Below are positions 26,193 to 47,375 of a DNA stretch of 64,000 bases, one piece after another. The DNA lies in NCBI GenBank assembly GCA_903970405.1, contig CAJCIT010000032.1, positions 1 through 64,000 on the forward strand, given 5' to 3'. Made by a program: the position numbers and the translations under genes. Position 1 is the stretch's first letter, and each line of letters opens with the position of its first letter. The notes below the pieces were generated by a model, which was not told the origin of the DNA, did not search any database, and saw nothing but the letters and a program-made list of their open reading frames with translations. The stretch comes from Acidobacteriaceae bacterium. Its GTDB lineage: Bacteria > Acidobacteriota > Terriglobia > Bryobacterales > Bryobacteraceae.

Positions 26193-26311
26193 GCCCGCCG
26201 GTTTGCAGCCCGCCACAGGCGTCAACCTCCCTAACCCGCTCCCAGGAAAGCCTGTCCGCATGTACAATTGAGAGACGTGGAGATTTGCCAGTTCAAGTTC
26301 CCTGCGAAAAA

Positions 26312-26977
26312 ATGACCAGCCTTCAATCTGCATTCCGAGTCTCAGTCATTGCGGGCATCCTCAGTCTGCTGTCTACGGCTGGGGCCGTTCCATGCAAAGG
26401 GCAAACCAGTCAGACGGGGCCGCCCACCACCGAGCCCTTGCAGAAGAACGATGGGAAATTGCCGGAAAAGCCACCGGTTAGTCCCGGTGGGTCGTCTGTC
26501 GATACCCACACATTCAAGGTCGGGCCGGAGGATATCCTCAACATCGTGGTTTGGAAAGAGCCGCAGTTCTCGGGCAACTTTACAGTCCACACCGATGGCA
26601 AGTTCACTATGCCGCTGGTGGGCGATATCCAGGCTGGGGGTCTCACGGCGGTTGAAATTGAGCCGCTGGTCACCCAGGTTCTTTCGAAATTGATTGTGAA
26701 GCCGCTTGTCACGGTGACCGTGGCGGCCGTTTACAGCCGCAAGTACTACCTCGACGGAGAAATTAACCGTCCAGGAGAATATGCGCTGCAAGGACCGACA
26801 ACTGTACTGGACGCAATCAGCAAAGCCGGAGGTCTCCGCGACTTCGCGAACCCAAAAAAAATCTATATCCTCCGCGGCGAAAAAAAGATCCCCTTCAATT
26901 GGAAAGATGTCATTCATGGAAAGAATATGGAACAAAACATTCAGATTGAAGCCGGCGATCACATCTATTTCCCCTAA
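26312..26977 (+). CDS. Polysaccharide export protein (Wza-like, poly_export plus SLBB)
   Basis: Wza-like proteins form the outer-membrane channel through which capsular or exopolysaccharide leaves the cell. After a signal-like N-terminus and a Pro/Gly-rich stretch, the poly_export domain begins at FKVGPEDILNIVVWKEPQFS, and an SLBB domain follows with YLDGEINRPGEYALQGPTTV. ATG 26312 is preferred to a TTG at 26285. No clear lipobox is seen (a Cys lies in AVPCKG). It is the first gene of the export operon and is 11 bases upstream of the chain-length gene. Confidence 0.9.
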   Translation: MTSLQSAFRVSVIAGILSLLSTAGAVPCKGQTSQTGPPTTEPLQKNDGKLPEKPPVSPGGSSVDTHTFKVGPEDILNIVVWKEPQFSGNFTVHTDGKFTMPLVGDIQAGGLTAVEIEPLVTQVLSKLIVKPLVTVTVAAVYSRKYYLDGEINRPGEYALQGPTTVLDAISKAGGLRDFANPKKIYILRGEKKIPFNWKDVIHGKNMEQNIQIEAGDHIYFP

Positions 26978-26988
26978 GGCGCATACTC

Positions 26989-28605
26989 ATGCTTGAACGA
27001 TACTCAATCCCGCGGCGGGCGCTCGATTTCGAAGATTACCTCGATGTTCTGCGAAGGAATGTGCTGTGGGTGGTGGGCCCGGCATTTCTGGGCTTGGTGG
27101 TCACAACGGTAGCGGCGTTCCTGATGAAGGACGCCTTTGTTTCCACCGCCCTCTTGCGCGTCGTACCCCCGCAGATACCCGAGACGATGATCAAGATCGT
27201 CAACGTCACGCCGCTGGTGGACCGCATCAACGCGATGGCGGAACGAATTGAGAGCCGCAACACGCTGGCCCAAATCATCGCCACCAACGGTCTTTATAAG
27301 GACGATCTGAAGCGTGAGCCTTTGGCCGACGTCATTTCCGACATGCAGCACGCGATTCACATTACTGCTTCCGGGTCGATTACGAGCTCGGGCCGGACGG
27401 CGCCCGCCTTTCAGTTGACCTTTACGTATAAGGACCGCCACCTGGCCCAACAGGTCTGCGCCGAGCTTACCAATCGGTTTATCAATTTGAACCTCGAAGA
27501 AAAAGGGGATATTGAGAACAACGTCACGGCCGTGATGAAGGATGAGTTTGATGCGGCTAAAAAGAATCTGGATCAGTTGGAACAGAAGGTGACCGATTTC
27601 CGCATTCGCAACAATGGGCGGCTGCCCGATCAGATGCCCGAAAATGTTCAGCAGATGAATGGCCTGGAGGCGCGGATTACGGCAATCAATTCCTCGCAAA
27701 GCCGCGTTTCGCAGGAGAAGATGATCCTGGACTCTCAGCTCTCGATCGCCAAGGACCGTCTGGCGGCGATTCGGGAGGTCACCCCGGAGACGGTAATCCG
27801 CAGCGAGAAGATCGAGAATCTAGACCGGCAGATCAACACGCTCGAAACCAATATCGCGGTGATGAAGGAACACTGGACCGACAGCTACCCCGATCTTGAA
27901 GCCGCGCGGGCTGAACTTAGCCAGTTGCGCCATCAGCGTGAAGACGCTCTGAAACAGGATAAAGTGCGTCCGGTTGAAACGCGCGCCGCCGGGCCAAGCA
28001 AAGAGAAGATGGAGGCAATCGCCGATGTGGAGCGGCTTCAAGCGGCTTTGCGCGCGAAGGATGCCGAGGCACAGAGTCTGAGCAAGGAAGCGGGACAAGC
28101 CGAATCCGAAATGCGAAGCTACCAGGCCCGCATCGAAGGGCTCCCCGTGGGGGAACGGGAGTACGCCGAGATCACTCGTGACCGGGATTTGGCGAGGGAT
28201 CGTTATCAGGATCTTCAGTCAAAGTTGAGCGCTTCTCAGATGAGTACCCGCGCCGAGGGGCGCAAGCTGGGTGAAACGCTGGAAGTGATTGACCAAGCCT
28301 CGCTTCCTGAGACTCCCACCGAACCCAAGCGCCAGTTCATCATTCCGGCCGGGCTGGGCGCGGGGATCGCCCTGGGCGTTGTTCTGGTGGCCATCCGCGA
28401 GATTAAGGACACATCCCTGAAGAACCTAAAGGATGCCCGGATGTACACGCAACTGTCGATTCTGGGCAGCGTTCCTTTACTTGAAAACGACCTGGTCGTG
28501 CAACGCCGGAAGCAAATGATGTGGGTGGGATGGGCTACCGCCACATTGCTGGGCATTGCGGTGATGGGCGTTTCGGTGGCCCACTATTATCTGAGTAAAG
28601 CCTAG
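26989..28605 (+). CDS. Chain-length determinant/GumC-family protein
   Basis: This 538-residue inner-membrane protein is a polysaccharide co-polymerase that sets chain length and works with the Wza channel. It has an N-terminal Wzz domain with a transmembrane helix (NVLWVVGPAFLGLVVTTVAAF), a long coiled-coil periplasmic section (about residues 170-420, rich in EQKV, QLSIAKDRL and AELSQLRHQR patterns), and a second helix after 430 plus a final one near the end. The cytoplasmic kinase domain found in proteobacterial Wzc is missing and is instead the next gene, the Gram-positive-like split arrangement. It ends 6 bases before that gene. Confidence 0.9.
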   Translation: MLERYSIPRRALDFEDYLDVLRRNVLWVVGPAFLGLVVTTVAAFLMKDAFVSTALLRVVPPQIPETMIKIVNVTPLVDRINAMAERIESRNTLAQIIATNGLYKDDLKREPLADVISDMQHAIHITASGSITSSGRTAPAFQLTFTYKDRHLAQQVCAELTNRFINLNLEEKGDIENNVTAVMKDEFDAAKKNLDQLEQKVTDFRIRNNGRLPDQMPENVQQMNGLEARITAINSSQSRVSQEKMILDSQLSIAKDRLAAIREVTPETVIRSEKIENLDRQINTLETNIAVMKEHWTDSYPDLEAARAELSQLRHQREDALKQDKVRPVETRAAGPSKEKMEAIADVERLQAALRAKDAEAQSLSKEAGQAESEMRSYQARIEGLPVGEREYAEITRDRDLARDRYQDLQSKLSASQMSTRAEGRKLGETLEVIDQASLPETPTEPKRQFIIPAGLGAGIALGVVLVAIREIKDTSLKNLKDARMYTQLSILGSVPLLENDLVVQRRKQMMWVGWATATLLGIAVMGVSVAHYYLSKA

Positions 28606-33436: not shown

Positions 33437-33510
33437 AGTGAAACGATCCTGAAAGAATGCCCGGGGAGCATCCGGGCGTTCGCTATGGCGGATACTCTTG
33501 TGGCCGCTCC

Positions 33511-34284
33511 ATGCTGAATTCAAAGCGAATCGTAGTTGTCTTGCCGGCGTACAACGCAGCCCGGACAATCGAAGCCACCGTCGCTGAGCTGCCGGAGTGC
33601 ATTGACGAATCGATTCTGGTGGACGATTGCAGCAGCGATGACACGGTAGCCCTGGCTCGGCGCTTGGGCTTGACCGTGATTCAACATGAGCGAAACCGCG
33701 GGTATGGCGGAAACCAGAAAACGTGCTATGCGGCGGCTCTGGAGCGCGACGCCGATGTTGTCATCATGATTCACCCGGATTATCAGTACTCGCCGCTGCT
33801 CGCCACCGCCATGGCGAGCATGGTCGCCTACGGCATGTACGATCTGGCCCTGGGCTCGCGTATTCTGGGCGGGCAGGCCATGCGCGGCGGGATGCCGGTT
33901 TACAAGTACATTTCGAATCGTTTTTTGACCATGTTTGAGAATCTGATGCTCGGCGCGCACCTCTCCGAATATCACACCGGCTATCGAGCTTACAGCGGAG
34001 ACCTCCTGCGAACTCTGCCGCTGGAAGAGAACTCGGAGGATTTCGTTTTCGATAATCAGCTTCTTGCGCAGGCCATAGTGCTCGGGGCCCGCATCGGCGA
34101 GGTGTCCTGTCCGTCCCGCTATTTCCCTGAAGCCTCGTCCATCGGCTTAAGGCGCAGCGTCAGCTATGGATTGGGCGTCGTCAAAACCTCATTTGAAGGC
34201 CGCTTGGCCAAGATGGGCATTTCCCGCTCGCCCCTTTTCCGGTTTCGCGAGGGCGGACTGAAGGCTCTCCGCGCTTCCGCCTAG
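33511..34284 (+). CDS. Family 2 glycosyltransferase (dolichyl-phosphate mannosyltransferase-like)
   Basis: The 257-residue cytoplasmic or peripheral enzyme has the GT2 start VVVLPAYNAARTIEATV, VDDCSSDDT, the HERNRGYGGNQKTC segment and an IHPDYQYSP metal-binding region. This HPDYQY form is common in bacterial polyprenyl-phosphate-type GT2 proteins. There is no membrane-spanning C-terminus. ATG 33511 is chosen; an open extension to 33457 has no family features. It lies 74 bases after ompH and ends just before the perfect hairpin at 34302. It probably serves the surface polysaccharide of this block; the sugar is unknown. Confidence 0.9.
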   Translation: MLNSKRIVVVLPAYNAARTIEATVAELPECIDESILVDDCSSDDTVALARRLGLTVIQHERNRGYGGNQKTCYAAALERDADVVIMIHPDYQYSPLLATAMASMVAYGMYDLALGSRILGGQAMRGGMPVYKYISNRFLTMFENLMLGAHLSEYHTGYRAYSGDLLRTLPLEENSEDFVFDNQLLAQAIVLGARIGEVSCPSRYFPEASSIGLRRSVSYGLGVVKTSFEGRLAKMGISRSPLFRFREGGLKALRASA

Positions 34285-34301: not shown

Positions 34302-34333
34302 GGCGAGACGCCCGCCGAAACAGGCGTCTCGCC
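34302..34333. terminator. Perfect 11-bp hairpin between convergent genes
   Basis: GGCGAGACGCC at 34302-34312 pairs exactly with GGCGTCTCGCC at 34323-34333 around a 10-base loop. It sits between the 3' ends of the plus-strand glycosyltransferase and the minus-strand giant gene, so it could act as a bidirectional terminator. No T-run follows on either strand. Confidence 0.6.
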
Positions 34334-34358: not shown

Positions 34359-37300
34359 TTAAGGCGCCGCCGAGATACGCATCTCCGAGGTGCTGACCTG
34401 CCCCGAAGACGAGTTCCTGCGATCGACGACGTAGTAGAGCACTCGGCCGGGAATTGACGGGACGGTGATTGTGCACCCGCTCGAACAACTCGCCCACGCC
34501 GCTCCCTCGCTGACAAATGCGAACGGCGATACGGCGCTGCTTGTCATGCAGGCGTCCGCCCGCTGCGTGCAGTAGAAGTTTGACGGGTTGCCGCCATCTT
34601 CGACGTAGCCGAACCGGACGCGCGCTTGATCGTAGGCGGCGCTCGGCCCAAGATTCACGCTGACGGGGACGAAGTTATTGGAAGAAACAGGCTGTCCCGA
34701 AGGAAACGGCGGCAGCTTTGCCATGAATATATCTGAGCGGTATCCATTACACCAGTTGCAGCTAAACAGCGTCCATTGTCCCGCAGGTTCCATGGTTGCG
34801 GCAGAGAAGCTGAATTCGATTCCCGGCCCCATGAACCCGGTGCTGATTTTCCGGAAGTTCTGCCCGTTTGGATCGGGACGGTCCACGGCGCCTTGCACGA
34901 TCGACGCGCCGTGATACTGCAAGTTGACGGCACAGGGATCGTTTTCATCGAACCAGTTCGTATAACAAAGCCCCAGGCTGTAGTTCGTTTGACCTCCCGC
35001 TTGAGGCACTGACATGTAAACGTCGCCGGAGGCGGAGCCGGATCGGCATTCACCGGCAGTGTAGGCATAGCAAAACTGCCACGGCGTACTGTCGGTGATG
35101 ACGTTGCCCGTGGCCGGCGAAGACACGTCCTGAAGAAGGGTGTGGCCCGCGTAGGCGGTCACCGGCATCGCCTTGTATGGCGCCGTGCTGCCGTTAAACT
35201 TCCAAACCGTCGTCGTGCCGGTTACCTGAGTTCCCCGCGAAAAGTTCGAACCGGCCGCGTTACCGGAATCCTGCGATGTACCACTACCCGGATTCATCGC
35301 GTGCAGATCCACCACCCATCGGGCATTGAGGGGGTCCGAATCGGAGAACTGAAGTTGAGACGGATAAGACTGCCAAGGATACTCCGGGGAAGAACCGGCA
35401 AACGGAACGTTTGACGGCACCGTATAGGTGGAGTTCTCCAAAAACGGATTGTTAGGACTCATGATCGGGCTCTGGTACCAGACCGTATAAGGATCGTAGG
35501 CATCGCTCGATGAAACGGCGGTCCCGTAAGCCGCCGATCCGCTGAAACCGAATGCTGTGTGGCCTCCGCCGACATAGTTGTAAGACCACCCCGCGCCCAG
35601 GTTCGTGGTGTTGACAAAGTTGAATGCATCGCACAACGGATACGTATAGCCAGACCAGCCGGACGGCCAGGGCTGTGGCGAATAAGTGCCGGGCTGAACG
35701 CAATAGTTGCTTTCGGAAGTCGGGAACCGCGAGGCGACGAATTGATAGTTGGCGCCGCCAAGGGGCGTAACGCTGACAATCTGCCAGTCTTCCCACTCCC
35801 CAAAAGTGTTCAATTGACCCCAATAGTTGAACAAATCTCCGGGCTGAAGCGGAGAGGGCTCTCCCCAGACGGGATTACCTGCAATATCGTTCGGACCATG
35901 ATCGCAGGGATAGTCCCGCGCTTCCGGCGAAATTGAGCCGCTCTGAATGCTGACATTGGCGCCGGAGAGTAGCGCGGTCGATACTCCATTCACCGATCTC
36001 TGCACTGTAAGAGATGTGCCGCTCACCCCGCTTACATAAACCAGCTCCAGGCCAGGGTATGTCGTGCTGTTGGCGGTCGTAATGTAAAGATAGCTACCCG
36101 TCGAGATGCCGGACGCAGAGGCCACGGAGAGAGTGGTGGCCGCGGCGGTGGCGGCGCCCGTCAGCGTAGTGCCGCCGGACGACTGCCACCAGGGCGCGGC
36201 GCTGCAGGCCATCTGGCTTTGAAATGTAATGCAGTTATTCCCCACCGCGCCTTGGTGCACAAGGTTGCTGGCTATGCCCGTTGGGCATGCCCCGAGAATT
36301 GAGCTATCGGTTGGAAGGGACGTATCGGATGAAAACGAACCGGACTTCAAAACAGCGTAAGGGGTGAATCGGAACGGCCCGCGGCCGTAACTGTTCGGCG
36401 AAGGATTGCCGTTGCTTTCATTGCCCGTCGGATTCTGGTTATTGATGCCGAACGTGTTCTGCGGGGTTCCAATGTTAGTCGTATGGTTGACCCCCCATCG
36501 CTGCGGGAACGTTCCATTCAGGGATGCGCTTGAGAACTGCAATGCTCCGGTGGCAAGATCGAGAACCCACAGGCCCGTGGCCGTATTCTGTCCGCCGGGG
36601 TTGCTGCCGACAAACACCTTGCCCCACCGGATAGAGGGAATTTGAATACCCGTTCCGGCGTCCGATTGCATGCTCGGTTTCCAGGTGGGGGAGCCGGTCA
36701 CAACCCTGTAGTCGACGTCCGTGTTGGCGGAGACCAGGAAGTTGCTGTTGTTGTAAGTCATGCACGAGTTTGACCACTGGGGCCCCTGGAACCAGTACTG
36801 CGTGGTATCCTGCCCCGGTTTCCAACTGCTCGGCGGATATAGCGAGTGCGCGTAAGCCTGGTAGTTGCAGCCGCTGGTTGTGTTGCTATAGGCTGCCGTC
36901 ACCACGACATTCGGCGCCTGATTCACATACGTTCCCACCGTCCGGGCGTAATTGCTGTACCGGTACCCGATGTAGAACTGATTCGGGTTCGAGGGGTTAA
37001 ATGAGCCGGCCGACCAGAATCCATTCCCCGTGCCATTGGCCATCAAATCCATGGAAGTCGGCGCGGTCGAGTGAGTGTCGATGTAGACAGGGGAAAGGTA
37101 CCGCGTTTCGCCGGTAGACGGGATGAGAAGATACAGAACCGGGTTCCCGGCGACAAACGGAGTGCAAAACTCCCCCGATACCGGAGCGATTGGCGTCACG
37201 CCGTCAGCCGCGTAGGAAACTGTCACCGAGGTCAGGGAGCAAAGGTCGCTATCGCCCCCGTTGGGCCCGATCAGCGCCGCCGACTGAGTGTAAGCGGAGG

Positions 37301-39665
37301 ACACGCTGACTTTGACCGTGCCTGTGCCCGTGGTCTTCCTGACGATGGCGCCTGAGGTCAGAGAATAGTAGCTCCCGCTGATCGGCGATGGCAGCGTTTG
37401 GACGATAAGGAGCGTGTTCCCGTTCGTCACTGAAGAAATTGTGCAGACGTTGTTCGCGCAGGTGGGCGACGAGCCTTGTAAGAAAATCTTTCCGCCGCTC
37501 TTCCAGTTCAGGTTGAACTCGCCCAGGTACGTTGTGTTAGTGACCGTGCTGCCGGTTGCCGAAAAAGTGCCTGAGTAGACACTGATATCGTTTCGCCTTG
37601 CCGTGGTTCCCCAGCCCTGCCAGGCGCCTCCATCGGGAAAGACGGAAGATGCCGGATAGACGGCGGACGCGGTACTCGATGAAGCGGGGGCCGATGCCGG
37701 CAGCACTACCGTGTAATAAGGCGTGTTGCAGGTATTTCCCGAGTCATAAAAGCTCAGGCAAAACTCCACCGTTCGATTTGCGGCCGAGCTATCCGTAGCC
37801 GTTCCAAAAAACGACAACTGGACGTTATCGAGCGAGTTCACCAGTCCGCCCGCGTTCTCTGGAGAAAACCCAAAGAACCCTTCCGGCATGCCGCTGGAGC
37901 CCCAAGCGACAAAGATTGGATCGCTGTTTGCGCCAGAGTATGTGGCGTAAACCGTCTGGGAAGGAGCGGATCCATTGCCGGTGATGTTTTGCGGACTAGT
38001 CCAGGCGCCGTTGAAGTCAGTGTAGTAACTGAATACGCCCTCTGAATCGTAGCCGGCGCCGTTGGCGCGTCCGTAGACCTCGCCAGGGCCCGTCATGCGC
38101 TTAATCTGAATCCCGGTCGTTGGATCGATATACCCAACCGTCTTGTCAGCCCAGTTGATGGTGGGCCACCCATAATTTCCCCAGCCTGCGGCGTTGAATG
38201 GCGGCGGTTCCGGAAACGTGTTGCCGAGCGCCGGATTTGCGGTCGTAAACTGGCCTGTCGAGATCGTTCCCGAGCAATTCACGCTGTAATACTGCGTGGT
38301 GTTCGCTTGGAGCGCTCGCGAGTAAAGATTTCCGTCGCTTGCCTGGTCGCTGCGCCGGGTGCCCACCACGAAGGAACGGCGTAAGCCCATCGCCGTGTTG
38401 CCCGTCCGGCCGTCCGAGTTGGAGCCGGAGAACAGCGCGGGATCAACATCATGGACCAGGGGCGAGAGCGTGGGCGACTCGCTCACTTGGAGCGAGCACG
38501 CCGCTGCCGATGGAGCCATATATGTCAGAATCGCCTGCGTAGCAGTAACCTGAGAAGCATCCACGGTGAACGGGAATACCACCGGGAGCAGGGCGTTTGC
38601 CCAGAGAGTATAGCCCGAGACATTGGGATGCACTCCATCATACATATACGGGGCGTTATAGGTCCCGCCAAGCAGGCCGTAAATGTCGACAAGCGGAATG
38701 GCGTTTGAGGAGGCAAGTGACTGAAGAAGCGGATAGTAAAGCGCCTCATAAGTAGAATACGAAGAACTCTGACTCGGTGGAAACGTGGACAGAATCACAT
38801 CGGCGCCGGCGGCATGCGCCGTGTTAATGAGAATCGTCATGTTGGCGATGTACGTAGTTGGAGAGAGCGACGCGAACGCATCGTTGATGCCAAGATCGAT
38901 GACCACCAAGTCGGGAGTCGCCGCCGCGATGAAAGCCAATGACTCGGCGGTGTAGGGATTGGTCCATTCTGTCGTGTTGGTCCCAGGATTTCCCGCGTTG
39001 CCAATGAGAATCTGGGCTTTCGTCGAAAGGAACGGCTCGACGCCAACGATGACAGCGGTGTTTCCCGTTGCGACGGAGATTGAGACACTATTGCCAGTGC
39101 CGGCCGAACCAGCCGTCACCAGCGCCCTGTAGATGTTCCCGGACAGGGAAGAATTATAGGGGACTGAGGTCGGCGATCCCCCGGTCGCCTGAGCCGTAAA
39201 CGTGCCAAGGGGCTGATAGGCTGGCGTCGCTCCCGATCCGCCCACGTAATATACATAAAAGGAGTCTGCGTTAACGCCGGGCGTGAAAGTGATACTTCCG
39301 CCCCCGCCCGTCGAATAGTAGGCGGAGCTGATACCCGCTGCTCCCGCGTTAGCTGACGCCCAACCCGCGCCGATGGTCCACCGCGAATCGCCAGGGCTGG
39401 TGTATGGCGTCGAAAGGCCATAAACGCTCGGCGTTCTTGAATTATTGGCGAGGGTGGCGAGTTGAGCGCAGAAGCTATCCGGATTCGGCCCGTAAGGCAG
39501 GCCCCAGGTGGTGCTGTCTCCGATGCACAGGACCCTGGCATTCGCCGTTCCCGCTCTCGCGCCCGCCAGCTTAGCGCTCCAATGAACAAGGCCGGGAGTT
39601 TGTGTTTGCGCGAAACAGAGAGGAGATAGTAATAAGGCTACACAAATCGTGTTAATGCTTCGCAC
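34359..39665 (-). CDS. Giant secreted SGNH-hydrolase protein, 1,768 residues
   Basis: The GTG at 39665 shares its G with the TAG stop of the upstream gene and gives a signal peptide (RSINTICVALLLSPLCFAQT). The frame is open to 39836, but those 57 codons overlap the upstream gene and look like a shadow. An SGNH/GDSL hydrolase domain (about 40-355) has GDST near 49, GIND at 259-262 and DGVHPN at 343-348, the Ser, Gly/Asn and Asp/His blocks. About 1,400 beta-rich Ser/Thr/Gly/Asn residues follow. One segment, AAATTLSVASASGISTGSYL, resembles a phage structural-protein motif. SGNH domains often remove acyl groups from glycans; the rest is unrecognised. Confidence 0.8.
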   Translation of the reverse strand: MRSINTICVALLLSPLCFAQTQTPGLVHWSAKLAGARAGTANARVLCIGDSTTWGLPYGPNPDSFCAQLATLANNSRTPSVYGLSTPYTSPGDSRWTIGAGWASANAGAAGISSAYYSTGGGGSITFTPGVNADSFYVYYVGGSGATPAYQPLGTFTAQATGGSPTSVPYNSSLSGNIYRALVTAGSAGTGNSVSISVATGNTAVIVGVEPFLSTKAQILIGNAGNPGTNTTEWTNPYTAESLAFIAAATPDLVVIDLGINDAFASLSPTTYIANMTILINTAHAAGADVILSTFPPSQSSSYSTYEALYYPLLQSLASSNAIPLVDIYGLLGGTYNAPYMYDGVHPNVSGYTLWANALLPVVFPFTVDASQVTATQAILTYMAPSAAACSLQVSESPTLSPLVHDVDPALFSGSNSDGRTGNTAMGLRRSFVVGTRRSDQASDGNLYSRALQANTTQYYSVNCSGTISTGQFTTANPALGNTFPEPPPFNAAGWGNYGWPTINWADKTVGYIDPTTGIQIKRMTGPGEVYGRANGAGYDSEGVFSYYTDFNGAWTSPQNITGNGSAPSQTVYATYSGANSDPIFVAWGSSGMPEGFFGFSPENAGGLVNSLDNVQLSFFGTATDSSAANRTVEFCLSFYDSGNTCNTPYYTVVLPASAPASSSTASAVYPASSVFPDGGAWQGWGTTARRNDISVYSGTFSATGSTVTNTTYLGEFNLNWKSGGKIFLQGSSPTCANNVCTISSVTNGNTLLIVQTLPSPISGSYYSLTSGAIVRKTTGTGTVKVSVSSAYTQSAALIGPNGGDSDLCSLTSVTVSYAADGVTPIAPVSGEFCTPFVAGNPVLYLLIPSTGETRYLSPVYIDTHSTAPTSMDLMANGTGNGFWSAGSFNPSNPNQFYIGYRYSNYARTVGTYVNQAPNVVVTAAYSNTTSGCNYQAYAHSLYPPSSWKPGQDTTQYWFQGPQWSNSCMTYNNSNFLVSANTDVDYRVVTGSPTWKPSMQSDAGTGIQIPSIRWGKVFVGSNPGGQNTATGLWVLDLATGALQFSSASLNGTFPQRWGVNHTTNIGTPQNTFGINNQNPTGNESNGNPSPNSYGRGPFRFTPYAVLKSGSFSSDTSLPTDSSILGACPTGIASNLVHQGAVGNNCITFQSQMACSAAPWWQSSGGTTLTGAATAAATTLSVASASGISTGSYLYITTANSTTYPGLELVYVSGVSGTSLTVQRSVNGVSTALLSGANVSIQSGSISPEARDYPCDHGPNDIAGNPVWGEPSPLQPGDLFNYWGQLNTFGEWEDWQIVSVTPLGGANYQFVASRFPTSESNYCVQPGTYSPQPWPSGWSGYTYPLCDAFNFVNTTNLGAGWSYNYVGGGHTAFGFSGSAAYGTAVSSSDAYDPYTVWYQSPIMSPNNPFLENSTYTVPSNVPFAGSSPEYPWQSYPSQLQFSDSDPLNARWVVDLHAMNPGSGTSQDSGNAAGSNFSRGTQVTGTTTVWKFNGSTAPYKAMPVTAYAGHTLLQDVSSPATGNVITDSTPWQFCYAYTAGECRSGSASGDVYMSVPQAGGQTNYSLGLCYTNWFDENDPCAVNLQYHGASIVQGAVDRPDPNGQNFRKISTGFMGPGIEFSFSAATMEPAGQWTLFSCNWCNGYRSDIFMAKLPPFPSGQPVSSNNFVPVSVNLGPSAAYDQARVRFGYVEDGGNPSNFYCTQRADACMTSSAVSPFAFVSEGAAWASCSSGCTITVPSIPGRVLYYVVDRRNSSSGQVSTSEMRISAAP

Positions 39666-41455
39666 TATTGCACCCCATAGACGACAGCGGAAATGCTGAA
39701 CGTTCCTGTGACGCCGGAGTAGGCGCCCCAAATCGCCCCGGTCTGGTTCGCCAGGCACACGCCGACGGAGGTAAGCGCCGAGGAATAGGCGCTTGTCCAG
39801 TGCGTGGTGTTCGACACGGTGGTCACATTGCTCCAAGTCACGCCATCCGCGCTTGTCGCCAGCTGGTCATAGGGTGCCGTGCTTGGTGTGTGGACCCACC
39901 GCAAATACATGCCCGTGTTCGTGGTAATCAACGTCAACGGAAGAGACATTTCAAACCCAGTGGAAGCGACGCCGCCGGACACCGAAGCGGAAGAGAGATT
40001 GAACTGGGCTCCGCCCGAATATCCGGCGGAGCCGACGTTCCCGAGGAAGGCGAAGTTGTTTCCACCGGAAGTCGTCCCAGCCCAACCGCATAGGCCCGTA
40101 AAGGCGTTCGAGATGATATGTCCGTTGAATTTCAAGTAGAAGGTCTTGGTAAACGATGAGGCGCCCGTGACGGCTGTTCCCCAATAAGCCCAATCTTGCG
40201 TCGATCCGGTGTCGCTTTGCGTCAGCGTTACCGACCCGTCTGAATTTGTTGTAATCGAGCCCTTTGAGTTGTTATTAACCAGTAGCGAAAATCCCGAAGG
40301 CGCCGAGTAAACGGTGGTTGGTGCGCCAAAGGAGACGCCGCCCCCTCCGCCGCCTCCTCCGCTCGCCGAAATGACGCCGCTTCCGTTGATGGTGACGGAG
40401 GTGCCGTCCACCTTCACCGCTCCGGCTGTGGTCGTGCTCGCGGTCGGCAGGTTTGCTGAGGGAACTTGCGAGGATGAATTTAGAGGCGCGTAGCCGTTGG
40501 CCGTACCCTTGTTGGCGCTGTTTTCGGGTGTAAATCCGAGAGATGCTTCAATGTCCGTTGCCCCGGCAATTCCGGTTGCATCGAGCGCGGTTCGTTTGAT
40601 GACGCCATTGCTGCCGGGATCGCCTAGTCCGCCACCGCCACCACCTCCGCCACCGCTGGCGCACCCCGCTGTTGTGGCGTTTCCGTTCGAATCGGTACAG
40701 AGCGTGGCGCTGGTTCCACTAATCGCTCCCCTCTCCAGCACCACGGAAGGGTCGACATTGAACTGCGTCGAGTTTGCTCCGATCGTGGTCTGCAGGCCGG
40801 TACCGGCCGTGTAGGTATCGATCGAGAGCATGGCCCGGACATCGGCGCCGCTGCCCCACGTTCCGCTTGACGCTGTCCAGGATGACAAGGGAATTGCGCC
40901 GGCCGGAAACTGGACGATGCCTGAAACGGCGCTGCAACCGGAAGTGCACGTCAGCGTCAGGTTATGGCCGACGGTCAGATTGCCTGACGGCGAGATATAC
41001 ACGTAAGCGGTGCCGGTGCCCGCGGTAAGATTCGCTGTCGCACCCGCGGTGAACGCAAAGACCGTGCCGCCCACCCGGACATTACAAGGAGAACTGGCCG
41101 AGCAACTCGAACCGATGGTGAGATTCGGGCCGCTGACGGTAGAAGACAGGAGATTGGGAGTCCCCGTGGATCCACCACCACCGCCGCCGCCGCTGGAACC
41201 CCCTTGCAGCGTCCATTGGTTCGGCGCGAGACACAGATAGAAATTGGAACCCGCCGGTCCGCTCGATAAGATATAGGCTTCAGCGGCGGCGCATGTGCCC
41301 GGCAGCGACGCGCCAATGCGCACCGGCTTCGTATAAGTAGCGCCTGTGAAATCGATGCCTCGCGCTTGATGCTGAAGATCGAGCTTCGTCTGGGCGCCGG
41401 CAAGAGCGACTGTCGTGAACACGAGCAGTAACTTGAGAACAAAATTCCTAACCAT
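39665..41455 (-). CDS. Secreted glycine-linker protein with phage-tail-fibre-like segment
   Basis: The 596-residue protein has a signal peptide (MVRNFVLKLLLVFTTVALAG). A first domain (about 23-85) with two cysteines ends in NQWTLQGG. Three poly-glycine linkers (near 89-95, 268-276 and 366-373) separate beta-rich domains. Residues 306-337 read LGFTPENSANKGTANGYAPL then NSSSQVPSANLP, which closely resembles the 'LGYTPENxANKxxxNGYAxLD..G.VP...LP' stretch of phage tail fibres. A final domain (375-596) looks like a lectin-like beta-sandwich. It is coupled by a 1-base overlap to the giant SGNH gene. It may be a surface fibre or adhesin; this is inference. Confidence 0.75.
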   Translation of the reverse strand: MVRNFVLKLLLVFTTVALAGAQTKLDLQHQARGIDFTGATYTKPVRIGASLPGTCAAAEAYILSSGPAGSNFYLCLAPNQWTLQGGSSGGGGGGGSTGTPNLLSSTVSGPNLTIGSSCSASSPCNVRVGGTVFAFTAGATANLTAGTGTAYVYISPSGNLTVGHNLTLTCTSGCSAVSGIVQFPAGAIPLSSWTASSGTWGSGADVRAMLSIDTYTAGTGLQTTIGANSTQFNVDPSVVLERGAISGTSATLCTDSNGNATTAGCASGGGGGGGGGLGDPGSNGVIKRTALDATGIAGATDIEASLGFTPENSANKGTANGYAPLNSSSQVPSANLPTASTTTAGAVKVDGTSVTINGSGVISASGGGGGGGGVSFGAPTTVYSAPSGFSLLVNNNSKGSITTNSDGSVTLTQSDTGSTQDWAYWGTAVTGASSFTKTFYLKFNGHIISNAFTGLCGWAGTTSGGNNFAFLGNVGSAGYSGGAQFNLSSASVSGGVASTGFEMSLPLTLITTNTGMYLRWVHTPSTAPYDQLATSADGVTWSNVTTVSNTTHWTSAYSSALTSVGVCLANQTGAIWGAYSGVTGTFSISAVVYGVQ

Positions 41456-41841: not shown

Positions 41842-42486
41842 GTGTCGCATCCCCACCCTCTTCTGAACCGACTGTTCCGCGCCTACCGGCTTTGCGCTTG
41901 CGTTTTCCTTGCTCTGTACCTCGCGGTGTCTCTTTCGCCCATGGCCGTGGATCTGTGGATTGGCCAACTCTCGAAGGTGGGATGGACGGAGAGTGACGGC
42001 GACATCCTCATCGCTCTTACCGCTGATGTTCAGCCTGACGGGCTGTTGGGATTTACTTCCTATTGGAGAGCCGTGTACACGGTGCGCGCCTGGCGATCCG
42101 GCCATTTCAAGAAGATCGTTGTCAGCGGCGGCTATATGGGAATGAATCGATCCCTGGCCTCTGTCTTCGCCGAGTATCTGATTCGCTCCGGCGTTCCCGC
42201 GGACGTCATCGTCCTGGAAGAGCGGTCCGCCAGCACCCATGAGAACGCCATATTTACAACTCAACTCCTGCGCAATGTGCCTGGCAAGAAGGTCCTCTTG
42301 ACAAGCGATCTCCACATCCTTCGCGCCACTAAGGCGTTTCTCCATGAGGGGCTGGACGTGACTCCCCGCACTTTTCCGGATGTCAGCAAAGCCGCCAGTA
42401 ATCCGCTCAATCGTTTTAACCTCATGATCGCTTTGGCCATCGAGACCCTGAAGTTAGGCTATTACTACATACGAGGTTGGATCTAA
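41842..42486 (+). CDS. YdcF/SanA-like DUF218 membrane protein
   Basis: The 214-residue protein has an N-terminal transmembrane helix (LCACVFLALYLAVSLSP) and a DUF218 domain with the IVVSGGYMGMN, VIVLEERSASTHENA and VLLTSDLHILRA segments that define the YdcF/ElyC/SanA family. The family is linked to envelope and polysaccharide metabolism, with no single biochemical activity known for all members. The GTG start at 41842 has no good ribosome-binding site, so a slightly different start is possible. The gene converges with selA. Confidence 0.85.
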   Translation: MSHPHPLLNRLFRAYRLCACVFLALYLAVSLSPMAVDLWIGQLSKVGWTESDGDILIALTADVQPDGLLGFTSYWRAVYTVRAWRSGHFKKIVVSGGYMGMNRSLASVFAEYLIRSGVPADVIVLEERSASTHENAIFTTQLLRNVPGKKVLLTSDLHILRATKAFLHEGLDVTPRTFPDVSKAASNPLNRFNLMIALAIETLKLGYYYIRGWI

Positions 42487-44050: not shown

Positions 44051-45559
44051 TCAGGGCTTTGGCCCGGAGTAAGCTACGCTCTTCGTGACGGTTTCAGTCC
44101 CCTGCACTGCCGTGATGCGCAACTCGCACTCACCCGGCTTAACGGGCGCGGCAATGGTGATGGGAATCACGCCTGTCGGATCGGGCGGCGGTAACGGCGA
44201 CGACTGATGAGCAACCGGCTGCCCGCCGACCAGAAAGTCGACTTTGATCGTTGGATTGTCAGGGTGCGCTTTGTTGGGATAGATGACGAAATATACCTGC
44301 TGATTCGCTCCCTGCTTCAGATCCTTGGCAAGCTGCGGAATCAAGCGGGCGCCCTGATAAATGAGGGGGTCCTTCGGATCGGGCGCGCCGTTCACCGGCT
44401 GGATGCGCTGAATCAGAACCGGGCTGCTGAGGTTGAGGCCATCCAGCATGATGGCATTGCGATCCACGTCGACGATCGCCGCGCTAGTGGCCTTGGCATT
44501 TCGGTCCACCACCACCGTTTCAAAGGTATATTGGCCCTGCTCAAGCGTGATGGGGCGCGTAAAGGCCAATGAGGTGGTGCGAAAGGCCGCGAACTGGGCA
44601 TCCGGAATGGGGGCGGTCCGTTCCAAACTGAATCTCTGGACAATGCGTCCCGCCACGTCTTTCACCACCACAAATACGAAGACGTTGATCTGATGGTTCT
44701 GGGTCTTAGGGTCGATAGCGTCTTTCAGATTTGCAACCGGCAGCTCAAACGCGTAGGCGCTTTGCGATTTGCCATCGACATTCCGGAAGCTGAAGGCGGC
44801 TGTTCTTAATTCAAAGTCGTGCGGCAGCGGCTTCTGGGCAAGCGTCTTGAGGGCCGCGCGTTCGTCGGGTGTGCTGACCTCCTGTACCTGGTGCTGCAGA
44901 CGGTCCTGGTCGTCCATCTTTTTCAGGGCAGCGGCATCGGCATCGCTCCATTTCTCCGTTCCTTCGGGTGGAAGGAAATCATTCATGTTGAAGATTTTCA
45001 TCTTCTCGCCGGGCGGGGCGATCGCGAGCACCAGGGCCAGCTCATATTTCGGACCCTGGTAGTACTTGATGTGGATACGGTGAAGTCCCGCAGCGAGCGT
45101 GAAAGGCACTGTATCCGGGTTGGAAGCGTCATGAGTGCCGTCCTGATCGATCACCAGCGTGTCGTCGATAAATAGTTGAGCGCCATCGTCGGACGCCATC
45201 ATGAATCTGTACTTGCCGGGTTTGGTGACATAAAAGCGGCCCCAATAGTCGATGCCAAACCACTCGACAATTCCGCCCAAGCCTGGGAATCCCGCCGAAA
45301 ACTGACGGCGCGTGACGTTCAACTGATTCGTGTAGATATAGCCCAGCGGCTTCAACTTATCGAAATTGGGAAGGCGGAGCGTTCCCTCTTCGAGCCTGTA
45401 AACAGCGCCCCGGAGGCCAGTGGAGATGACCACCGTGCTACCGAATACGGCCACCTTGCCCTCGTTCCCGGAAGAGCTTTGATCCTGGGCAGATAGCGAG
45501 CAGACCATCAGAAGTGCGGCAAGTCTATGGAGGGCAGGCATTCGACTGGGAATCGGCAT
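44051..45559 (-). CDS. Secreted PA14-domain protein
   Basis: The 502-residue protein has a signal peptide (RLAALLMVCSLSAQ) and a PA14 domain (about residues 50-180) recognisable from FYVTKPGKYRFMMASDDGAQ, LFIDDTLVIDQDG and the calcium/sugar-type IHIKYYQGPKYELAL end. PA14 domains bind carbohydrate. The remaining 300 residues form beta-rich regions without a recognised family; the last part (PVKPGECELRITAVQGTETV) looks like an Ig-like closing domain. The ATG at 45559 is the first; an ATG six codons later is an alternative. It is followed upstream by a secreted esterase on the same strand. Confidence 0.8.
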   Translation of the reverse strand: MPIPSRMPALHRLAALLMVCSLSAQDQSSSGNEGKVAVFGSTVVISTGLRGAVYRLEEGTLRLPNFDKLKPLGYIYTNQLNVTRRQFSAGFPGLGGIVEWFGIDYWGRFYVTKPGKYRFMMASDDGAQLFIDDTLVIDQDGTHDASNPDTVPFTLAAGLHRIHIKYYQGPKYELALVLAIAPPGEKMKIFNMNDFLPPEGTEKWSDADAAALKKMDDQDRLQHQVQEVSTPDERAALKTLAQKPLPHDFELRTAAFSFRNVDGKSQSAYAFELPVANLKDAIDPKTQNHQINVFVFVVVKDVAGRIVQRFSLERTAPIPDAQFAAFRTTSLAFTRPITLEQGQYTFETVVVDRNAKATSAAIVDVDRNAIMLDGLNLSSPVLIQRIQPVNGAPDPKDPLIYQGARLIPQLAKDLKQGANQQVYFVIYPNKAHPDNPTIKVDFLVGGQPVAHQSSPLPPPDPTGVIPITIAAPVKPGECELRITAVQGTETVTKSVAYSGPKP

Positions 45560-45641
45560 GATTCATGCGAGTATAACGAACTCCCCTGAGTGGCTGCTCG
45601 AAAACTTGGCCGTTTCACCGCAACAGGCGCGGGAACGATTT

Positions 45642-47375
45642 TCAGTATCTCCAGGACTTTGTGTCCGCGCCCGCCGGGGCGGTGGAAAGCATGTGCTCCG
45701 CCATCAACGGCAGAACGCGCTGGGCCCAGGTCGCGTTGTTCTGCTGCATTGAGTACTCGGCCGGCCCGCCGGTGTAACAATGCGGCATCCCTGGCCCGTA
45801 CTGGAACGCGGCGTCGGAATGCGGATTGCGGGTCGCGTCCAACTCTTTCTCTAGAAGGTGGACCGCATTGTTCAGAAAATAGGTGTCGCCGTCGCCCACT
45901 GCAACGTGAATCTTGCCTTCGAGCTTCGGACCGAGCGTGGCCCAGTCGCGCTTCAGGATGGCCGTCAGATCGTAATGATCGTGCCAGTAGGCGAGGACCG
46001 ATTTGTCGATGCTACCGGTGATCGAGTCGATGATCTGGGCAGGATAGCCGTCGTCGCCGGCGGGCGAGAACACAGCCTGCCAGATGCCCCACTGCTCGGT
46101 GGACCTTCCATGCGTGCCGAGCACATATTCATAGGCGTACTCTCCGCCCGTGACGGCGATGATGGAGCCGTCCGGCTTGCGGTCGGCGGCGATCGGAATC
46201 TCCGCGAAGTCACCCTTGCGGACGAAGGCGTTCGTGTCGTTGTACAGGTCGATGTTCTGGTAGGCGTGGAAGTCGACCGGGTCAGGACAGGCCGCGTACG
46301 TGCCGTTGTAAAGGTCGGGGTAGAAGACCTGTGTCGCAAGCGCCTCCCAGCCCCCGGTGGAGCCGCCGAAAGTGGCGCGCGCCCACCCCTGGCCGATGGC
46401 GCGATACTTCTGCTCAATGGCCAGAATCAGCTCTTCGTTGATGGCCGAACCGTACGGGCCGACGTTCGCGGAGTCCACCACATATGAGTCGTCGTAGTAA
46501 GGGTTGGCGTTCTGAACGTAGATCATGATGACGCGCGGGAGGCGGCCCGAGGTCCAGTCTTGAAAGAAGCGGTAGCCGTTCTGCTCACGCCGGCCGCCGC
46601 CGGTCGACTTCGCCTCAGGAGCCTTGGTGACAAAAGGCACGGGTCCGAAGCCCGCGTGATAGTGGTCCTGATAGACAACCAGGGGATACTTGGCGTCCGG
46701 GTGCCCGTCGAAGCCGTCCGGCAGCAGAATCCAAGCGGCCAGATACATCTCTCGGCCCCAGAATTTACTCAGCTTCTCGCTGCGGAAGCGCATGTACTTC
46801 AGCCACTTCGCGCCGGGGTCTTGGGCTGCCATTACCAACGGGTCCTGATCCGTGCCTTCAATCGGTGGAATGACCTGATCGAGGGTCAGTTTGACGGTCT
46901 CCTGTGATTTTGGATCCAGGTGGAGCTTTACTGGCTTGTTGTACGGATTGCCGGGTTTGCGGTTCCAGTGTTGACCTTCGCCCTTATCGGGCGGAAGCCA
47001 CACGTTCTTGCCCGAAGCCAGATGAAACAGCTCATACACATTGAATACGGCCTGGAGGTAATAATCGCCGGGCTTCAGGTCAGTGAGAGAGCGGATGGGG
47101 TAGCCGAAGGTCTTTGCGTCCACAACGATTGACTGACCGGGCTTCAGATCTTCGACATCGACGCCAAAAGCCTGCGCCGAGAGGTAATCCTCAGTCAGTT
47201 GATTGCGCGGTTCGGACTCGCCTTTCTTCGCGATCGCCAGAATCAGATGGCCGTGGAGCGGAGTAGTGGTTGGCACGGTGACCTCGATCCGCTGCGCGAG
47301 ACCGAGGGATGCGGAGGCGAGGAGAGGAACAAGCCTCATGGCGCGGATGAGGGCGGGGAAGTCTCTCATTGTCAT
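45642..47375 (-). CDS. Secreted esterase-like alpha/beta hydrolase
   Basis: The 577-residue protein has a signal-like N-terminus (MRLVPLLASASLGLAQ at residues 13-28) and an N-terminal beta domain of about 180 residues. The C-terminal half resembles enterochelin-esterase/feruloyl-esterase D-like hydrolases: YPLVVYQDHYHAGFGP, then ARATFGGSTGGWEALATQ as the nucleophile elbow (Ser in GGSTGG) and a late histidine in MPHCYTGG. It lies 82 bases upstream of the PA14 gene on the same strand and may be co-transcribed with it. A substrate such as an esterified polysaccharide is possible but not shown. Confidence 0.75.
   Translation of the reverse strand: MTMRDFPALIRAMRLVPLLASASLGLAQRIEVTVPTTTPLHGHLILAIAKKGESEPRNQLTEDYLSAQAFGVDVEDLKPGQSIVVDAKTFGYPIRSLTDLKPGDYYLQAVFNVYELFHLASGKNVWLPPDKGEGQHWNRKPGNPYNKPVKLHLDPKSQETVKLTLDQVIPPIEGTDQDPLVMAAQDPGAKWLKYMRFRSEKLSKFWGREMYLAAWILLPDGFDGHPDAKYPLVVYQDHYHAGFGPVPFVTKAPEAKSTGGGRREQNGYRFFQDWTSGRLPRVIMIYVQNANPYYDDSYVVDSANVGPYGSAINEELILAIEQKYRAIGQGWARATFGGSTGGWEALATQVFYPDLYNGTYAACPDPVDFHAYQNIDLYNDTNAFVRKGDFAEIPIAADRKPDGSIIAVTGGEYAYEYVLGTHGRSTEQWGIWQAVFSPAGDDGYPAQIIDSITGSIDKSVLAYWHDHYDLTAILKRDWATLGPKLEGKIHVAVGDGDTYFLNNAVHLLEKELDATRNPHSDAAFQYGPGMPHCYTGGPAEYSMQQNNATWAQRVLPLMAEHMLSTAPAGADTKSWRY

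Follow-up and report, generated by a model that had tools for sequence, protein, structure and literature searches.

A predicted Sec-exported gene pair of Bryobacteraceae chromosomes and phages, with phage-fibre kinship and a candidate role on surface polysaccharide

Introduction

Tailed phages normally produce their fibres, and put them together, in the cytoplasm. Tail fibres with SGNH domains in Klebsiella prophages are active acetyl esterases, and gp63.1 of phage G7C de-O-acetylates lipopolysaccharide (PMC13123978). For tail-like proteins on the cell surface, display of Streptococcus mitis PblB needs phage-induced permeabilisation, and one pneumococcal PblB with a predicted signal peptide is the nearest precedent for what follows (PMC4508584). 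Lysogenic conversion of the O-antigen, as cited in PMC13123978 and PMC10883804, includes the gtr genes of P22 and O-acetylation by D3 and Shigella phages. Here we describe two adjoining genes, P1 and P2, in a 64,000-nucleotide stretch of a Bryobacteraceae genome (“the window”; GenBank assembly GCA_903970405.1, contig CAJCIT010000032.1, positions 1 to 64,000), whose products combine kinship to phage fibres with predicted signal peptides. Searches of mostly open-access literature turned up no account of a class of tail fibres exported through Sec, and novelty is provisional to that extent.

We propose, with a probability of about 0.5, that P1 and P2 would constitute a two-gene, Sec-exported, phage-fibre-related module acting on surface polysaccharide, beyond the cytoplasmic membrane, and exchanged between phages and their hosts.

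Results

The gene pair and its domains

P1 (39665-41455, minus strand), the conserved upstream partner of P2, encodes an exported fibre-like protein of 596 amino acids, and P2 (34359-39665, minus strand) an exported protein of 1,768 amino acids. Both open reading frames lie exactly where a sequence-only reading of the window had placed them, and the 1-base stop/start overlap that it had pointed out was recovered as a TAGTG (39663-39667, minus strand; CAATAGTGCGA), at which the G of TAG, at 39665, is the first base of GTG. Tail fibres would be expected to lack a signal peptide, yet both proteins start with a predicted Sec-type one, MVRNFVLKLLLVFTTVALAGAQ in P1 (41390-41455, minus strand) and MRSINTICVALLLSPLCFAQ in P2 (39606-39665, minus strand). 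The three poly-glycine linkers attributed to P1 were found as well, at residues 89-95, 268-276 and 366-373.

Iterated profiles split P1 into four parts. P1N (residues 23-86, about 65 amino acids; 41198-41389, minus strand; profile 6.7e-25) has two conserved cysteines and is also present in apparently exported phage proteins, and P1M (residues 111-239, about 130 amino acids; 40739-41125, minus strand; profile 1.6e-48) is beta-rich. They are followed by a phage tail-fibre segment (residues 301-339, GFTPENSANKGTANGYAPL; 40439-40555, minus strand), whose TPENSANK begins at residue 309, and by a C-terminal domain (residues 373-596; 39668-40339, minus strand) that is present only at this locus among the loci compared, no relative having been detected there by profile. 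Residues 301-341 share 51-70% identity with tail-fibre-like proteins in most matched IMG/VR contigs, and thus the segment is more than composition. The proposed resemblance of P1 to phage tail fibres is borne out by this TPEN segment and by P1N, which is common to phage proteins; among chromosomal P1s, the segment is present only in the window copy. Chance or low-complexity resemblance is ruled out by the segment identity together with the profile-defined P1 and P2 families. P1 had no Pfam or NCBIfam profile match and no match among the isolated phages of INPHARED. One match in BFVD, to an uncharacterised Caudovirales protein (4e-4, template modelling score about 0.1), was not relied on. Structure prediction, which the sequence-only reading had called for, was confident mainly within P1M (residues ~100-208 mostly of high confidence, with a predicted local distance difference test score, pLDDT, of about 79-96 by block), and the C-terminal domain of P1 obtained no confident model.

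In P2, the expected SGNH/GDSL hydrolase module (residues 26-366; 38568-39590, minus strand) matches PF13472 (9e-17) and PF00657 (8e-11), and its catalytic motifs, GDS at 49-51, GIND at 259-262 and DGVH at 343-346, correspond to intact GDS/GxND/DxxH blocks; its esterase activity is predicted. The nearest phage relatives found for this module are SGNH proteins of Gordonia phages. Gp31 of phage DumpsterDude, encoded directly after a minor tail protein and devoid of a signal peptide, shares 35% identity (2e-44) over the whole module, including an insert of ~150 amino acids. The rest of P2 is a conserved, cysteine-rich core of about 1,400 residues (361-1768; 34362-38585, minus strand), which belongs to an uncharacterised profile family that includes phage members. 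Outside the SGNH region, P2 matched no Pfam or NCBIfam family. In the PDB, no relative of the core was found, and a search with the model of a short phage P2 from locus L091 gave nothing below E = 0.001; a weak match of that model to the phi11 receptor-binding protein (E 0.05, prob 0.3) was not relied on. Among the isolated phages of INPHARED, P2 was matched only via its SGNH part, and a phage P2 core had no match.

A long N-terminal domain is absent in 53 of the 57 P2 genes and present in four, the window copy included. On this distribution, the SGNH domain is therefore not the essence of the second gene but an addition to a scaffold whose general role is a different one. The glycan-modifying enzyme of the sequence-only reading stands as an intact module closest to a tail-adjacent phage SGNH protein, and gives way as the definition of the pair.

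Conservation and distribution

Of 200 sampled Bryobacteraceae genomes, 47 carry the P2 core; they represent 26 of 76 genera and have at most 5 matches apiece. A sample across the phylum included 198 other genomes, and the core was detected in none of them. Its named relatives are mostly metagenome-assembled genomes assigned to Bryobacteraceae, Bryobacterales, Terriglobia and Candidatus Solibacter. A P1N/P1M gene lies directly upstream, on the same strand, in 27 of the 53 distinct P2 genes with upstream sequence, often at a spacing within -10 to +10 bp, and at the window, too, a P1N/P1M protein directly precedes the P2 core, both having signal peptides. P1M is moreover inserted inside the P2 core itself in several loci (L051, L078, L081), which on separate grounds points to a common module. 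Judged by this gene order, P1-P2 is a conserved unit, as had been anticipated. It is not a one-off oddity of a chromosome, since P2 occurs in about a quarter of the sampled Bryobacteraceae, often with P1, and the pair is also found inside phages.

The genome studied here has three full-length P2 cores. P1 accompanies the window copy alone, and the SGNH domain is likewise confined to that copy. The third paralogue (G000:C64, L042:6233-12001) has an N-terminal region of ~470 amino acids that matches no Pfam family and includes a stretch that looks transglutaminase-like by eye. Separately, the P2 core on a contig filed under Nevskia soli (L080) clusters with those of Bryobacteraceae at 100% support in the Shimodaira-Hasegawa-like approximate likelihood ratio test (SH-aLRT); the contig is probably misbinned, or else this is a case of transfer.

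Copies in phage contigs

The pair, with its signal peptides, is also present in metagenomic phage contigs. L095 encodes, one after another, the terminase large subunit (phrog_979, 6e-40), a 715-amino-acid protein, P1 and P2, the last two each with a signal peptide; the 715-amino-acid protein, which has no PHROG match, we read as a portal. This phage P2 has a pectate-lyase-like beta-helix (PF12708) in place of the window SGNH. The 67.8-kb record from which L091-L093 derive has a run of signal-peptide genes that ends in P1-P2, after genes for the tail sheath (5e-78) and the baseplate (7e-45); putative fibre genes devoid of signal peptides and a putative integrase gene are also among those surrounding this run. 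L118 carries a P1M protein and P2 near RecT (3e-45), and in L107, on a contig with a minor tail match, a P1N protein lies about 1 kb upstream of P2, not adjacent to it. A search for TerL in four phage records found nothing.

Scanning with P1N alone gave 29 viral loci, and 27 of the 29 distinct P1N proteins passed a simple signal-peptide test. Both failures can be accounted for, and apparently all of these proteins are Sec-exported: one of the two is cut short where its contig ends (in L114 this gene passes), and the other reads MARSLKLLLLLAGLLALPLAAQQ. Ordinary viral proteins with a TPEN segment passed it in 0 of 12 cases. Most of the other signal-peptide genes on these contigs (33 of 44) adjoin a P1N gene. 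Cysteine content was 1.9% in P1N proteins, 1.2% in signal-less proteins of the same contigs and 0-0.84% in ordinary TPEN fibres. Searching INPHARED with a phage P1N protein returned one weak match, to the C-terminal half, in an uncultured record.

Further genes lie within or beside these cassettes. Two genes of L121 (11659-12336 and 12759-13415) have Tat-like signal starts (MLRREFIKSAAAG and MLDRRTFLLG) and lie beside the exported cassette, between structural genes. At L091:4379-8340, the cassette includes a phosphoesterase-like protein with a signal peptide and a 975-amino-acid protein that appears beta-helix-like by eye.

In a tree of 46 P2 sequences (SH-aLRT support from a quick search), the phage members are scattered: L118 groups with L159/L160 (99), L107, a long branch, with L155 (98), and L090 with L058 (99), while the window P2 pairs with its own paralogues (100). 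Such a pattern is the expected outcome if phages and chromosomes have exchanged the gene repeatedly, the tree being silent on direction. Reading the genes around L155, L159, L160, L161 and L166 revealed no phage genes; polysaccharide and housekeeping genes were seen instead. The flank genes of the other chromosomal loci showed almost no similarity to the viral open reading frames compared, except some in L053. The recurrence of the pair across the family, often near genes for surface polysaccharide, and inside phages suggests that an exported machine directed at the sugar coat may pass between phages and hosts.

Polysaccharide genes around the pair

Pfam families were counted among 123 flanking genes from 20 loci, with 100 genes from the same genomes as control. 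The flanks contained glycosyltransferase group 1 (n=7), asparagine synthase (n=4), DegT (n=3), glycosyltransferase family 2 (GT2; n=3), O-antigen ligase (n=3), UDP-sugar dehydrogenase (n=2) and polysaccharide deacetylase (n=2), and no polysaccharide family with two or more members is listed among the 100 control genes. The connection to polysaccharide first noticed at the window recurs across the family, homologues of 16 polysaccharide genes being found at 14 of 28 P2 loci and at 0 of 18 control loci. P2 is followed on the same strand, within 15-25 bp, by a glycosyltransferase gene in L047 and L050. At the chromosomal locus L177 (6741-16182), two P2 genes flank an asparagine-synthase-like gene of a polysaccharide cluster.

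At the window, the pair does adjoin a block of Poly_export, Wzz/GNVR, AAA, BamA, OmpH and GT2 genes. The Poly_export/SLBB and Wzz/GNVR proteins (profile matches) are encoded at 26285-28605 (plus strand), and the convergent GT2 gene (33457-34284, plus strand; PF00535, 3e-17) ends 75 bp from P2. The hairpin in this gap (34302-34333, minus strand), described earlier as terminator-like, has a 14-bp stem (z = -2.8) and no clear T-run. On the side of P1, a divergent DUF218 gene (41842-42486, plus strand; 6e-20) is followed by SelA. No phage structural genes were found at the locus, where the neighbouring genes encode polysaccharide export proteins, SelA, a PA14 protein and an esterase; the flank genes had no similarity to the viral open reading frames compared and no nearby prophage was seen in the window, in agreement with the reported lack of head, portal, terminase and lysis genes. 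Beyond SelA, upstream of P1, positions 44051-47375 encode one protein with a PA14 domain and one with an esterase domain (PF00756), which might, or might not, be part of the surface function.

Discussion

From the conserved unit, its export signals, its phage kinship and its polysaccharide neighbourhood, all read from sequence, we infer polysaccharide binding, deacylation, a surface location and a benefit to phage or host. Both proteins would be exported through Sec and would fold, with disulfide bonds, in the periplasm. P1 would be a stalk made of conserved N-terminal modules, glycine hinges and a variable tip, which binds polysaccharide and positions P2, whose core may be a glycan-binding multidomain scaffold. 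The substrate of the window SGNH would be the polysaccharide that its gene neighbours make or export, from which it would strip acyl groups, probably acetyl ones. In a phage, the cassette may change or mask the surface of infected cells and lysogens, leading to lysogenic conversion or superinfection exclusion, and in a chromosome it may have been kept for a cell-surface function. Of the sequence-only reading as a whole, the phage link, the unit, the intact SGNH and the polysaccharide connection persist, and the SGNH as essence and the one-off status are given up.

Several points weigh against such a polysaccharide-acting module. Function is deduced for all P1 and P2 members, and the proposal gives no route across or onto the outer membrane. 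The signal-peptide calls come from a simple heuristic applied to a modest sample. Half of the chromosomal loci have no polysaccharide homologue in the flank examined, and the 16 query genes came from the test loci (own-locus hits excluded), with 486 kb of test sequence compared to 192 kb of control. Outside the window copy, only 3 of the 57 listed P2s carry a long N-terminal domain, which rules out deacylation as a general function of P2. The AlphaFold2 model of the short phage P2 from L091 reached a pLDDT of 60 and a predicted template modelling score of 0.60, with local FN3-like matches only.

The main rival explanation places the phage copies in the virion, as receptor-binding proteins routed through Sec for periplasmic disulfides and joining the virions at lysis, the chromosomal pairs being domesticated. 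The siting of exported cassettes at tail or structural positions (in L121 inside the structural region), the higher cysteine content of their proteins relative to signal-less phage proteins and ordinary TPEN fibres, and the tailspike-like domains among them all suit this explanation. Yet some of these phages also have signal-less fibre- or tailspike-like genes (L092, 17775-19803; L116, 2532-5030), the chromosomal copies lie in polysaccharide loci with no detected phage genes, and no periplasmic route of virion assembly was found in the literature searched; we regard it as unlikely. Perhaps a broader claim can be made, namely that some phages of Acidobacteriota, and probably of other hosts, send part of their receptor-recognition apparatus through Sec in the form of disulfide-bonded fibres, whose genes lie as tandem exported cassettes within the tail module or beside it, and that Bryobacteraceae exchange these cassettes with their phages and remodel their own polysaccharide coat with them. 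This joint claim is speculative, and we hold it as a tentative possibility.

Alternatively, the pair could be a secreted adhesin or matrix system that binds the polysaccharide of other organisms or soil particles rather than that of the cell. The variation in the tip of P1 and in its length (279 to over 1,000 amino acids) agrees with this, and prophage PblB-type adhesins follow a similar logic (PMC4508584). However, the pair is repeatedly found within or beside glycosyltransferase, asparagine-synthase-like and UDP-sugar dehydrogenase genes, which suggests a link to the cell's own polysaccharide, and we consider a foreign target improbable. It is far less probable that P1 and P2 are a prophage relic or decaying genes devoid of function: clear phage relatives and the patchy spread (47/200 genomes) would fit, but the reading frames are long and intact, as are the catalytic motifs, gene order is conserved, the genome keeps three full-length P2 cores, and no phage genes were detected nearby.

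If the favoured reading of an exported, exchanged module is true, a class of fibre-like phage proteins that apparently all bear export signals, shared with hosts and linked to their polysaccharide loci, would hint at an unrecognised means by which phages act on the cell surface from inside. The pair connects P1N/P1M with the P2 core, two large families of proteins that lack annotation, and makes the surface biology of an abundant soil family open to testing.

Comparison with known systems

With phage tail-like proteins acting as surface adhesins, PblA/PblB of streptococci resemble the pair, a comparison of mode of action only (PMC4508584); they differ in being single proteins of prophages in Gram-positive hosts, with no paired P2. 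Lysogenic conversion systems, as far as the citing papers describe them, are similar in that phage-carried genes alter the host surface polysaccharide, but they are enzymatic and act during or after its synthesis, whereas an exported fibre-like pair is proposed here. Tailspike depolymerases with a pectate-lyase beta-helix find a counterpart in the phage P2 of L095, which has such a domain N-terminal to the core and differs by its signal peptide and by the P2 core itself. SGNH receptor-binding proteins (G7C gp63.1, Klebsiella prophage fibres, Gordonia DumpsterDude gp31) have in common with the window P2 an SGNH domain that keeps its motifs and is tied to phage tails, and for the characterised ones de-O-acylation of polysaccharide is known or proposed. 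Unlike gp31, the window SGNH is predicted to be Sec-exported, is fused to the P2 core and is encoded on a chromosome with no phage genes detected around it.

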